A DNA stretch of 64,000 nt from NCBI RefSeq assembly GCF_024298845.1, contig NZ_CP101160.1:62001-126000 (forward strand). Direction: 5' to 3'. This stretch comes from Natronosalvus amylolyticus (GTDB taxonomy: Archaea; Halobacteriota; Halobacteria; Halobacteriales; Natrialbaceae). Below the pieces are notes generated by a model, which had not been told where the DNA came from, ran no database searches, and saw only the letters and a list, made by a program, of their open reading frames with translations. How positions within the stretch are numbered: position 1 is the first letter of the stretch; every line of letters starts with the position of its first letter. A program made the translations under genes and the position numbers. This document shows, piece after piece, positions 10,676 through 16,117 of this stretch.

Positions 10676-11083
10676 TCACTTGTGGACGTCGTACGACTCG
10701 ACCAACGTGAGGAGATCTCGTTCCAGTTCACCGCCAATAAACTGGACGCGCCCCGTTTCAGCCTCATAGTCGATTATCCGAGCCTCGTCCAGTTTTGGAA
10801 GATGGGTATGGTGAAGTGTGATCCGGACGCGTTGTCGGTGTTCGGCTGACTCCCGTTTCGTGTCATCGTCCCGAACCCGGTCTGCAACGCGATCTACGAG
10901 CACATCGTATTCCAGTGTCTTCTCGGAGGCGGTGTCCAACGCGTCGAGGATGGCACGTCGATGTTCGTCCGCTACTGCTGACAGAACCGTATTGGGGGAG
11001 ATCGCTCTCTCATGCCTTGAAGAACCGGAAACCGCATCAATTGACTGGATATCACGTGTCCCCAGCTCTCGACTCTCATCCAT
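10676..11083 (-). CDS. winged-helix protein, DUF7344-like
   Basis: A 135-residue protein starting MDESRELGTRDIQS. Residues 25-130 form a winged helix: LSAVADEHRRAILDALDTA, a linker with DDDTKRESAEHRQRVRITLHHTHLPKLDEARIIDYE, and a beta-wing. This is the layout of the DUF7344 haloarchaeal regulators, named from memory. The frame stays open to 11197, but the extra residues cover the 14-bp motif at 11122-11135, so 11083 is preferred. The motif lies 38 bp before this start and also precedes both HTH_10 genes, suggesting joint control. Confidence 0.75.
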   Translation of the reverse strand: MDESRELGTRDIQSIDAVSGSSRHERAISPNTVLSAVADEHRRAILDALDTASEKTLEYDVLVDRVADRVRDDDTKRESAEHRQRVRITLHHTHLPKLDEARIIDYEAETGRVQFIGGELERDLLTLVESYDVHK

Positions 11084-11121
11084 ACTCTCATAACGGAGGC
11101 CCAATTGCCTGGCTCTGTCCC

Positions 11122-11135
11122 ATGGTGTATAATGG
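11122..11135 (-). promoter_or_regulatory. 14-bp shared motif, copy 1
   Basis: On the minus strand it reads CCATTATACACCAT, 38 bp before the ATG at 11083. It differs by one base from the copies at 11853 and 11947. Orientation relative to the gene is the same in all three cases. Confidence 0.6.
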
Positions 11136-11141
11136 AATCGG

Positions 11142-11807
11142 TCAGTCCATGTTCGCCGCTGACTCGGGCGTGAGAAGCGCGTGTCTTCCGAACGCACCGA
11201 TGGCCCGACGCAGTCGCTCCGTCACTGCCTGATCGGAAATTCCGAGTTCGTCAGCTAACTTCGCAGTCGTACAGCCTCGTGGAATGTCGTAGTATCCCAT
11301 TCGGATGGCAAGTGTAAGCGCTTCTCGTTGGGGCTCACTCAAACCGTACCACGGGCCAGCATCGGGGTCTGTCGGATTATATATACGGGTTATCTCCAGA
11401 GAGATGTGCGCATCCTCACAACAGGTCTGGCACTGACTCAATGCTTCGCGGTCTGCGAATCGAATCTCGAAATTCCAGCCTTCCGGTGATCCAGTTGCAC
11501 TCAGTATTTGCCCTTCGTGTTCCAAAATGCACTCAAAAAGGTGATCCTGGCTCGCATCCCAGTCGAGTCTTAACAGCGTCCGGTCGTCGAAGACGTCCAC
11601 ATCTGTGACGCTATTGACCGTTGGATAGCGCTCGACGGAATCGAGAAAGCCGTTTTCGACCGGTTCGTAGACCCAGAAAAGTGGCACGGTAGCGCCCCCA
11701 CTCGGGACGAGCGTTTCGAGTTCGACCGCCGACGCTCGCTCTAAACTGAGAATTTGGCCGAGTTCGAAGTCGTCGGATGGAATGCGAATCTCCGTTATTA
11801 CACTCAT
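11142..11807 (-). CDS. HTH_10 (bacterio-opsin-activator type) transcription regulator
   Basis: A 221-residue regulator. Residues 1-150 are a GAF/Bat-like sensory half (LERASAVELETLVPSGGATVPLFWVYEP). Residues about 160-215 are the HTH_10 domain: LSEPQREALTLAIRMGYYDIPRG then TTAKLADELGISDQAVTERLRRA. A cysteine cluster (CQTCC near residue 130) could bind metal or sense redox state. It is divergent from the related gene at 11999. Both have the 14-bp motif upstream, which fits auto- or cross-regulation. Confidence 0.9.
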   Translation of the reverse strand: MSVITEIRIPSDDFELGQILSLERASAVELETLVPSGGATVPLFWVYEPVENGFLDSVERYPTVNSVTDVDVFDDRTLLRLDWDASQDHLFECILEHEGQILSATGSPEGWNFEIRFADREALSQCQTCCEDAHISLEITRIYNPTDPDAGPWYGLSEPQREALTLAIRMGYYDIPRGCTTAKLADELGISDQAVTERLRRAIGAFGRHALLTPESAANMD

Positions 11808-11852
11808 GCTCGCTTATGAGACTAGATTGGTCGGTCGTACAAAAGGAGGCGA

Positions 11853-11866
11853 CATGGTGTATCATG
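11853..11866 (-). promoter_or_regulatory. 14-bp shared motif, copy 2
   Basis: ATGGTGTATCATGG on the plus strand, that is CCATGATACACCAT toward the gene starting at 11807, 45 bp away. It is an exact inverted match to the copy at 11947-11960; the two flank the centre of the divergent promoter region. Confidence 0.65.
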
Positions 11867-11946
11867 GCCACCTGGGTGCCAAACGGACACTTCGTTCCCA
11901 GAGCACGCGGTGCCGACCAGCACCGGTGCATTGGTTCATCTCGAAG

Positions 11947-11960
11947 CCATGATACACCAT
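11947..11960 (+). promoter_or_regulatory. 14-bp shared motif, copy 3
   Basis: CCATGATACACCAT, 38 bp before the ATG at 11999, the same spacing as copy 1 has to its gene. Together with copy 2 it makes a perfect 14-bp inverted repeat with arms 80 bp apart. Confidence 0.65.
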
Positions 11961-11998
11961 CCCCGTCGATTATCCGCCTGCTAGACGAAGGGTTCCGC

Positions 11999-12643
11999 AT
12001 GGCGACTGTAATGGAGTTTACAAGTCCGACAGAGGAGTTTCCGCTGGGGAGTGTGTTCGAGGACTTGCCCGGAGTAACGGTCGAACTGGAGCGCCTTATC
12101 CCACACGAGACGCTCATTATCCCGTACTTCTGGGTGCGTGGTGCAGAAACGGAGGATATCGAAGCTGCGTTCGAACCACACGCCGGCGTGACCAATATCC
12201 GAGTGGTTGATAGCGTCGAAGACGAGTATCTCATGCGTGCCGAGTGGGAACAAGAGTACTTCGGCATTCTGAGTGCTTTGGCCAAAGCCAACGTCGTCGT
12301 GCTCTCTGGAATCGGTACGAAAGACGAGTGGCGATTCGAGGTGCGTGGCGAGAGCCAGGAGACAATCGCCGAGTTTCGAGAGTACTGCCAGGAAAACGAC
12401 ATCCCGATAGCGATCACCGCTGTCCACGCCATGCTTCCGATCCAGGGGGAGGGCTACGAGTTGACCGAGACCCAACGCGAGGCACTGATATTGGCCTACG
12501 AGCGAGGATATTTCAACACCCCACGCGAGGTGTCGCTTGAAGAGGTCGCTGACGAGCTCGGCATCACCCAGCAGTCACTCTCATCACGCCTTCGACGCGG
12601 ACATCGACGCCTCATTGGAGCGACGCTCAGTAGTTCGGTGTGA
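11999..12643 (+). CDS. HTH_10 (bacterio-opsin-activator type) transcription regulator
   Basis: A 214-residue regulator, paralogous to the divergent neighbour. The N-terminal half (FTSPTEEFPLGSVFEDLPG) is the same sensory type. The C-terminal HTH_10 domain (about 155-205) reads LTETQREALILAYERGYFNTPR then EVADELGITQQSLSSRLRRG. An open frame extends upstream to 11777, but ATG 11999 gives the family N-terminus and leaves the 14-bp motif intact at 38 bp. Unlike the neighbour it lacks the cysteine cluster in the sensory half, having only an EYCQEN there. Confidence 0.9.
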   Translation: MATVMEFTSPTEEFPLGSVFEDLPGVTVELERLIPHETLIIPYFWVRGAETEDIEAAFEPHAGVTNIRVVDSVEDEYLMRAEWEQEYFGILSALAKANVVVLSGIGTKDEWRFEVRGESQETIAEFREYCQENDIPIAITAVHAMLPIQGEGYELTETQREALILAYERGYFNTPREVSLEEVADELGITQQSLSSRLRRGHRRLIGATLSSSV

Positions 12644-12726: not shown

Positions 12727-13092
12727 ATGGACACAACGGTATCTGGGGTTGGGGTCGAAGCAGTCGAGTACTCTCGGGAACCTGGGGCTGTTCGTACCCA
12801 GTTCGATCAGGAGAAGACGCCTGCGAGCATAGCTGTTATCGCAACACTGGCGGATCTAATGGGGACTGATCCGGTTGAACTCGACCCGCTCCATTCCGCT
12901 GTTGACCCCGACGAATTAGATGCGCTCGTCCGCGTTCGCAACGGGACGAACGGAAATCCCCACAACGGGGATACCCACGTCACATTCACGCACGAGGGGC
13001 ACGCGATAACCGTACACAGCTACGGTGTAATCACCATCACACCAGCACACGAACTTACAGCAAAGAAACACGAAAGGGGCGCAGGAAGATGA
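12727..13092 (+). CDS. HalOD1 output-domain protein
   Basis: A 121-residue protein built around the haloarchaeal output domain HalOD1 (residues about 30-110: SIAVIATLADLMGTDPVELDPL, then VTFTHEGHAITVHSYGVITITP). Family members are thought to be output modules of signal transduction, often as stand-alone proteins; the biochemical action is not known. It overlaps the next gene by 4 nt (ATGA), so the two are translationally coupled. Confidence 0.85.
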   Translation: MDTTVSGVGVEAVEYSREPGAVRTQFDQEKTPASIAVIATLADLMGTDPVELDPLHSAVDPDELDALVRVRNGTNGNPHNGDTHVTFTHEGHAITVHSYGVITITPAHELTAKKHERGAGR

Positions 13093-13274
13093 CGTCTGAG
13101 GAGACCTCGCTTACGTCGAAGGAGGAATTGAACGCGGAGCTGAAAGCCCTCCTTCGCAGGGCCTACGAGAGTGGTGTCGATGTGGAAGGCGGATTCGAAT
13201 GTCGGAATGGGGTCGAACATCCTGACTGGGACGTGATCGTCACGGAAGTCGAAAAGAACGAACATTCGGAGTGA
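13089..13274 (+). CDS. small conserved-type haloarchaeal protein, partner of HalOD1
   Basis: A 61-residue acidic protein, TSKEELNAELKALLRRAYES followed by GGFECRNGVEHPDWDVIV. The helix-then-CRNG...PDWDV layout is familiar from small proteins next to HalOD1 genes; I cannot give a function. The 4-nt overlap with the HalOD1 gene supports a two-gene transcript and possibly a complex. Confidence 0.75.
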   Translation: MTSEETSLTSKEELNAELKALLRRAYESGVDVEGGFECRNGVEHPDWDVIVTEVEKNEHSE

Positions 13275-15212: not shown

Positions 15213-15872
15213 TCAACTATCGCGTCCGAGAACGTCACCGAGCAATTTCCGCTGTGCAGTGATCAGATGTTCGGTCACTGTCGAGGGCGCGATATCGAGC
15301 GTTGCAGCGATTTCGGTCGCGTTCGCTCCTTTCGGGCGTTCGAAATAGCCCATGTCGAACGCCGTCTCGAGGACCTCTTCCTGCCGATCTGTGAGTTTCC
15401 CGCGGTTGACGAACACCCGCTCTTCGGGCGTTCCCTCGAGTGGCGGTCGCAGGAGTTGTTGGACGTCGACACCATCGAAGTGTTCGCGGAAGTCGGCCAT
15501 GATGGACTGCAGCTGTTCGAAGGTTTCAGCGTGGAAGACGACAGTGAGGATACCGTCCTCGACATCGTACCGGTGAATCGGACAGCCGTAGGAACCGAGA
15601 CAGGTACAGGGGCACGTTGTGTCGGTTTCGTGTTCGAAACGATAGATTGCGGTGTCTCCGTAGGAAAATATCGGTCCTCTAATCGAAGCGGGTTGTGCGT
15701 CGGTAGCCCGAACGGAGGGGGCCAAAAACTCGGTCGTACTCCCGACGTCGTCAGCGGGTACATTGCTGGTCGAAACCTGGGTAATACTCGTTTCGACCGC
15801 TCGAGAAAACTCGACGAGTGGACAGCTTTCCGGTGTCGTCACCGCTACGGTCGCACGTATACCCGACGACAT
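15213..15872 (-). CDS. HTH_10 transcription regulator
   Basis: A 219-residue regulator starting MSSGIRATVAV. The N-terminal half is a ligand-type domain containing CPCTCLGSYGCPIHRY (about residues 88-103), a cysteine/histidine cluster that could hold a metal or sense oxidation. The C-terminal part (about 160-215) is HTH_10: LTDRQEEVLETAFDMGYFER then TEIAATLDIAPSTVTEHLI. It resembles DmsR/Bat-type proteins. It lacks the 14-bp motif of the regulators near 11.8 kb. Its targets are unknown. Confidence 0.88.
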   Translation of the reverse strand: MSSGIRATVAVTTPESCPLVEFSRAVETSITQVSTSNVPADDVGSTTEFLAPSVRATDAQPASIRGPIFSYGDTAIYRFEHETDTTCPCTCLGSYGCPIHRYDVEDGILTVVFHAETFEQLQSIMADFREHFDGVDVQQLLRPPLEGTPEERVFVNRGKLTDRQEEVLETAFDMGYFERPKGANATEIAATLDIAPSTVTEHLITAQRKLLGDVLGRDS

Positions 15873-16117
15873 ACATCCGAGATTGCTCCTGTGCCCTCTT
15901 GAAGATACGGATGTTCGAGGCCGTCTAGAGCAACTAGGATACCCGTTGTAGGTGCAATACCGCATGCACTCGAGGTGCTACCGCGAAACCAGCGTCGATG
16001 CCCTCGGCGGAATCATCACTATCGGTTTATCGAAAACTCAAGCAGCCGTTGAGCGAACCGATAGCGTTGACAAACAACTGCTCCTGAAAAGCGGTGGTTG
16101 TAGTACTACACCAGTAT

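Follow-up and report, generated by a model that had tools for sequence, protein, structure and literature searches.

A conserved dyad before an HTH_10 regulator clade of haloarchaea is a candidate operator for autoregulation, both within and outside a mobile cassette

Introduction

In the haloarchaeon Natronosalvus amylolyticus, three neighbouring regulator genes are each preceded by a copy of a 14-base motif whose strand follows the gene, raising the question of whether the three sites belong to one circuit and, if so, which protein reads them. The initial annotation of this stretch (the window: 64,000 nucleotides, C5:62001-126000; the genome comprises 4.2 Mb on five contigs) had proposed a small self-contained circuit, perhaps with autoregulation by one of two HTH_10 proteins. 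Comparison with other genomes supports this proposal, as the site tracks homologues of one of the two proteins, HTH_10-A, including those encoded by solitary genes. It also makes the circuit specific: HTH_10-A is paired with a candidate dyad operator, and homologues of HTH_10-B that have no HTH_10-A gene beside them have no box.

Three boxes in one cassette

The elements of the locus, in order of position, are the following.

10676-11083, (-) strand: DUF7344 protein, 135 aa (PF24035), with a weak ArsR-like HTH match (weak NCBIfam)
11121-11134, (-) strand: dyad box before the DUF7344 gene, CATTATACACCATG, between the HTH_10-A stop and ATG 11083
11142-11807, (-) strand: HTH_10-A, a BAT + HTH_10 regulator of 221 aa (PF15915, PF04967)
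11837-11845, (-) strand: TATA-like element of the A promoter, CTTTTGTAC, 7 nt after the box, from alignment and kept in relatives
11853-11866, (-) strand: dyad box before HTH_10-A, CATGATACACCATG; the perfect dyad CATGGTACACCATG in relatives
11948-11961, (+) strand: dyad box before HTH_10-B, CATGATACACCATC, from sequence and alignment
11968-11973, (+) strand: TATA-like element of the B promoter, GATTAT, 6-7 nt after the box, from alignment
11999-12643, (+) strand: HTH_10-B, a divergent BAT + HTH_10 regulator of 214 aa, from Pfam matches
12727-13092, (+) strand: HalOD1-domain protein, 121 aa (PF18545), downstream of B
13089-13271, (+) strand: 61-aa protein, conserved as the final gene of the cassette; its start overlaps the 3' end of HalOD1

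All three sites lie at the places and on the strands first described. In the 14-mer register, positions 11122-11135 (-) read CCATTATACACCAT, and positions 11854-11867 (-) and 11947-11960 (+) both read CCATGATACACCAT. The sites stand 38 bp (ATG 11083), 46 bp (ATG 11807) and 38 bp (ATG 11999) from the start codons; both values of 38 bp had been reported correctly, while the remaining gap is one base longer than the 45 bp first given. A pattern search of the whole genome (4,217,547 bases) with CCATKATACACCAT returned three exact matches, every one in this window, and no match with one mismatch; matches with two mismatches numbered 20, against 14 in all for the reversed-pattern control. These two-mismatch sites elsewhere in the genome are near background, and many fall within open reading frames. 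Together, the three exact copies, the lack of one-mismatch copies and the near-control number of two-mismatch sites exclude a chance origin of the boxes, as the initial annotation had argued; the motif is far from being common genome-wide, the outcome named there as speaking against a circuit. Among the two-mismatch sites checked, no convincing further target emerged in this genome besides a second cassette and a chromosomal site at C1:1536695, both described below. The sole other promoter-like candidate noted in this genome is a two-mismatch match, TCACGATACACCAT, apparently between two divergent open reading frames (L014, G000:C1:2591077-2591090).

The dyad and its promoter geometry

The underlying element is a dyad, CATGGT-NN-ACCATG, of which the 14-mer represents one register. 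This dyad occurs in perfect form in relatives and consists of two six-base arms around two free bases, the latter mostly R-Y. The boxes in the window match 10 (DUF7344), 11 (A) and 10 (B) of the 12 arm bases, and typical boxes of orthologous cassettes are CCATGGTACACCATGT for A, CCATTATACACCATGG for DUF7344 and CCATGGTACACCACCC for B. A position table of 67 sites has strongly conserved arms and nearly free flanks, a pattern that is descriptive and no test of arm conservation, as the sites were chosen by arm match. The A box is more regular than those of B and DUF7344, and some B genes lack a clear box (e.g., L138 and L140).

In 16 aligned A-B intergenic regions, the boxes stand out as conserved islands amid variable DNA, and the DUF7344 box is kept in 17 aligned A-DUF7344 gaps. 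Two genomes carry insertions, of ~50 and ~200 bp, between the divergent A and B genes, with the A and B starts intact; in the shorter insertion, which can be aligned, each box remains with its own promoter. The BRE/TATA region follows immediately after the box, and the gap between box and TATA-like element is 6-7 nt in the A and B promoters. The B element reads GGTTAT or similar in relatives, and the DUF7344 box has no clear TATA after it. A pair of boxes is frequent before solitary A genes, with a start-to-start distance that is mostly 26-28 or 33 bp; the inner box often lies just before TATATTTA-like elements. In some solitary A genes (e.g., L283, L313 and L333), a conserved TRCCG stands a few bases before the distal box (TGCCGTTTTGCATGG, TACCGAAAAGCATGA).

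The dyad tracks homologues of HTH_10-A

Within the same family, the exact dyad occurs in 43 of 125 genomes, compared with 5 for the reversed control. It accounts for 49 places, 44 of which lie within 250 bp upstream of an HTH_10-A homologue, and the remaining five equal the number predicted by the reversed-pattern background. Matches distant from A genes in other genomes are scattered, at a family rate equal to that of the reversed pattern.

The association extends across the order, where the A clade was found in 133 of 392 sampled genomes (E <= 1e-50). When a match is defined as 10 or more of the 12 arm bases in the 200 bp upstream, the dyad precedes 80% of the order-wide A homologues at 43-58% identity (n = 81, mostly solitary) and 18 of 18 closer ones; 179 shuffled dyads averaged 0.6%, with a maximum of 7%. 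Below ~53% identity, A homologues are mostly solitary, with no B and mostly no DUF7344 gene found beside them, and the box is still present. In the named genomes, 69 of 80 A homologues follow a dyad, including those of Haloferax elongans, Halorubrum, Haloarcula and Natronorubrum, and several of those that fail carry CATGATGTGTCATG-type variants at the same 46 bp distance. No recognisable box was seen before some of the A homologues (L305, L335, L345 and L348). The sites are thus kept in orthologous promoters across many genera and several families, removing the second outcome that had been named as counting against a circuit; the comparison had been suggested for Natrialbales, and the range of the box proved wider, spanning the order.

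The same search gave a dyad before none of 38 B homologues (52-57% identity) from loci with no A neighbour. The A homologues of Halosimplex and of a Halobacteriales MAG (L395, L403, L409 and L410) keep the recognition helix and are preceded at -46/-47 by variant dyads (CATGATGTGTCATG, or with a CAGG end). At L265 and L266, in two genomes with no close A nearby, CATGGTCTACCATG (box at 1501) overlaps the predicted start of a lipoprotein-like gene, possibly another target or a chance match.

HTH_10-A as the candidate binding protein

HTH_10-A and HTH_10-B are distant paralogues, about 30% identical and encoded head-to-head. Both match the HTH_10 domain (PF04967; 64.6 bits for A and 66.5 for B, cut-off 23.1) and the BAT domain, which is GAF and HTH_10 associated (PF15915; 37.7 and 52.9 bits, cut-off 25.8). 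B has additional, overlapping sigma-r4 matches. In Pfam searches, PAS, GAF and DmsR_N domains were absent from both proteins, so A consists of BAT and HTH_10 only. DmsR_N is present in another HTH_10 regulator of the window (15213-15965, (-) strand; L084), ~2 kb beyond the cassette and without a box. The AlphaFold model of A (pLDDT 80) has an HTH that matches sigma region 4 (3hug); its N-terminal part gave only a weak match, to Ta1207 at 8% identity.

The recognition helix of A, SDQAVTERLRR, is nearly invariant over ~98 proteins whose whole-length mean column identity is 64%. The corresponding helix of B reads TQQSLSSRLRR, and box-less relatives of B mostly have SQQAVASRLRR. This genome contains 38 HTH_10 domain matches; among the 30 domains inspected, only cassette members had a box of at least 11/12 within 1.5 kb upstream. 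Because the box tracks solitary A genes, the A helix is nearly invariant and that of B differs, comparative genomics points to A as the likely box-binding protein, with its own promoter as the primary target.

A cassette that appears to move between families

The cassette has the order DUF7344-A<- ->B-HalOD1-61 aa and recurs with its boxes in other haloarchaeal families, often on plasmids; annotated plasmids of Halomontanus, Halostagnicola and Halorubrum show this gene order. The Haladaptatus cassette has no annotated DUF7344 gene, yet the DUF7344 box is present, and on unannotated Natribaculum plasmids A and B boxes were found with cassette parts separated or duplicated. The placement of the HalOD1 gene downstream of B is likewise repeated in relatives, and this gene is probably on the B transcript. 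The HalOD1 protein (12727-13092) matches the NCBIfam model DdfA (disk-determining factor) with 50 of 70 bits, below the cut-off, a hint of a link to cell shape.

A is 86-89% identical between this genome and relatives in Haladaptatus, Halorubrum and Halovenus. Since identity across families is about equal to that within the family, the sequences point to spread of the cassette by horizontal transfer. No relative of A was found in viral contigs, which thus give no sign of a viral cassette.

A second, diverged copy of the cassette lies on the same replicon outside the window (L152, G000:C5:382497-384805), with identities of 67% for DUF7344, 83% for A', 75% for an extra B-like gene and 91% for B', and with a box before each of DUF7344, A' and both B genes. 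A solitary chromosomal A homologue of 50% identity (L156, G000:C1:1536696-1537419) is preceded by a perfect copy of the dyad, CATGGTACACCATG, together with a weaker one, GTTGGTGCACCAGG, that stands before TATATTTA. The genome has three A paralogues, two on the 417-kb replicon and one on the chromosome (C1:1536781), with the same box and the same recognition helix. We tentatively suggest that the cassette is a regulatory module spread by horizontal transfer, with A proteins that read the same operator code as the A paralogues resident on the chromosome; a copy arriving on a plasmid might then be connected to the host circuit at once.

Proposed mechanism and alternatives

We propose that the three boxes are candidate operators for HTH_10-A, which would bind them, probably in dimeric form, by way of the sigma-region-4-like HTH at its C terminus. 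A would control its own promoter and, in the cassette, co-control B and DUF7344, so that one protein may set three transcription units. The feature that speaks for autoregulation is a candidate operator in A's own promoter, conserved together with A, and on these comparative data A-dependent autoregulation through the box is quite probable. If it operates, activation is the somewhat likelier sign: from a box immediately 5' of the BRE/TATA region, A may recruit TFB/TBP, perhaps in response to a signal received through the BAT domain. In this proposal we infer that A is the binder and that it binds as a dimer, as well as the direction of regulation, the BAT signal and what B, DUF7344 and HalOD1 do.

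A variant that differs in sign alone has A bind the boxes as a repressor, with negative autoregulation by blocking TFB next to the BRE and release by a BAT ligand. The abutment of box and BRE region would suit it, as would an extra dyad at about -16, between TATA and ATG, in some A promoters, a repressor-like place. The position upstream of the BRE leaves the sign unfixed, as CsmR of Haloferax volcanii binds there and yet its deletion raised target transcripts (PMC13286277). However, the characterised HTH_10 proteins Bat, NarO and DmsR are activators (PMC11218638), the GvpE upstream activating sequence (UAS) beside the BRE is an activator site (PMC4390858), and B and DUF7344 have weak TATA-like elements, in keeping with activator-dependent promoters; repression by A is possible but rather doubtful.

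The remaining explanations take A out of the binding role, or the box out of regulation by A. HTH_10-B could bind the same box, given that A and B share the HTH_10 fold, and B is a cassette member with a box in its own promoter; with B or the DUF7344 protein as binder, A would merely be a target. This is improbable, as most A homologues in the order are solitary and keep the box without B or DUF7344, B homologues lacking an A neighbour have no box (0/38), and the invariant recognition helix belongs to A. Haloarchaea have many TFBs, and the box, which contains TATACA near -45, could serve as an alternative core-promoter element, e.g., for a particular TFB/TBP paralogue, and be neither an activator nor a repressor site. 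We regard this as very unlikely in view of the separate TATA-like element at a fixed distance in the A and B promoters, the dyad symmetry and the confinement of the box to one regulator clade, with no broad gene set. Least credible is the idea that the box has no regulatory role and is a relic of A/B promoter duplication, a repeat or an integration site: the head-to-head arrangement of two distant paralogues would fit such an origin, but the box is an island among diverged flanks, persists across many families in which the proteins share ~45% identity, and is found before DUF7344, an unrelated gene, as well.

Comparison with known systems

The placement of the box beside the BRE in the A and B promoters has a parallel in the GvpE UAS of gvpA/gvpD in Halobacterium and Haloferax mediterranei, which, like the box, is two-part and lies next to the BRE of divergent promoters. 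This UAS must be close to the BRE to activate and serves divergent promoters (PMC4390858). One of these drives the unit of the regulator itself, as proposed for A, and GvpE is dimeric (PMC4390858). GvpE, however, resembles a leucine-zipper protein and A is a BAT + HTH_10 protein, hence not of the GvpE family; the UAS has two 8-nt elements with a 4-nt spacer, whereas the box has six-base arms and two free bases.

Among HTH_10 proteins, Bat (bacterioopsin activator) shares with A the HTH_10 domain and a BAT-associated domain, and the bop UAS differs in sequence from the box. NarO is associated with a palindromic site. PAS and GAF domains are present in Bat and lacking in A, and NarO and DmsR are, like A, short HTH_10 regulators without PAS/GAF (PMC11218638); A differs from them in carrying BAT and no DmsR_N. 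The semi-palindrome of Haloferax mediterranei denitrification promoters, CGAAYATDKTYG (PMC10062603), differs from the box. CsmR has a semi-palindromic motif upstream of BRE/TATA in haloarchaeal promoters, but this motif, TATCA(N4)TGATA, is unrelated to the box, and an HTH is unmentioned in its description (PMC13286277).

Significance

In the open-access literature subset searched, no description was found of the candidate operator, the A clade or the mobile cassette. The circuit type is already known; what is new is limited to a widely distributed regulator-operator pair and the mobile cassette. Haloarchaea encode many HTH_10 regulators; a DNA site is known for few of them. Sequence alone now provides the A clade with a specific candidate operator, a candidate protein that would bind it and a constant promoter geometry, bringing archaeal autoregulation, dimeric HTH_10 recognition and plasmid-borne regulator wiring within reach of small experiments.
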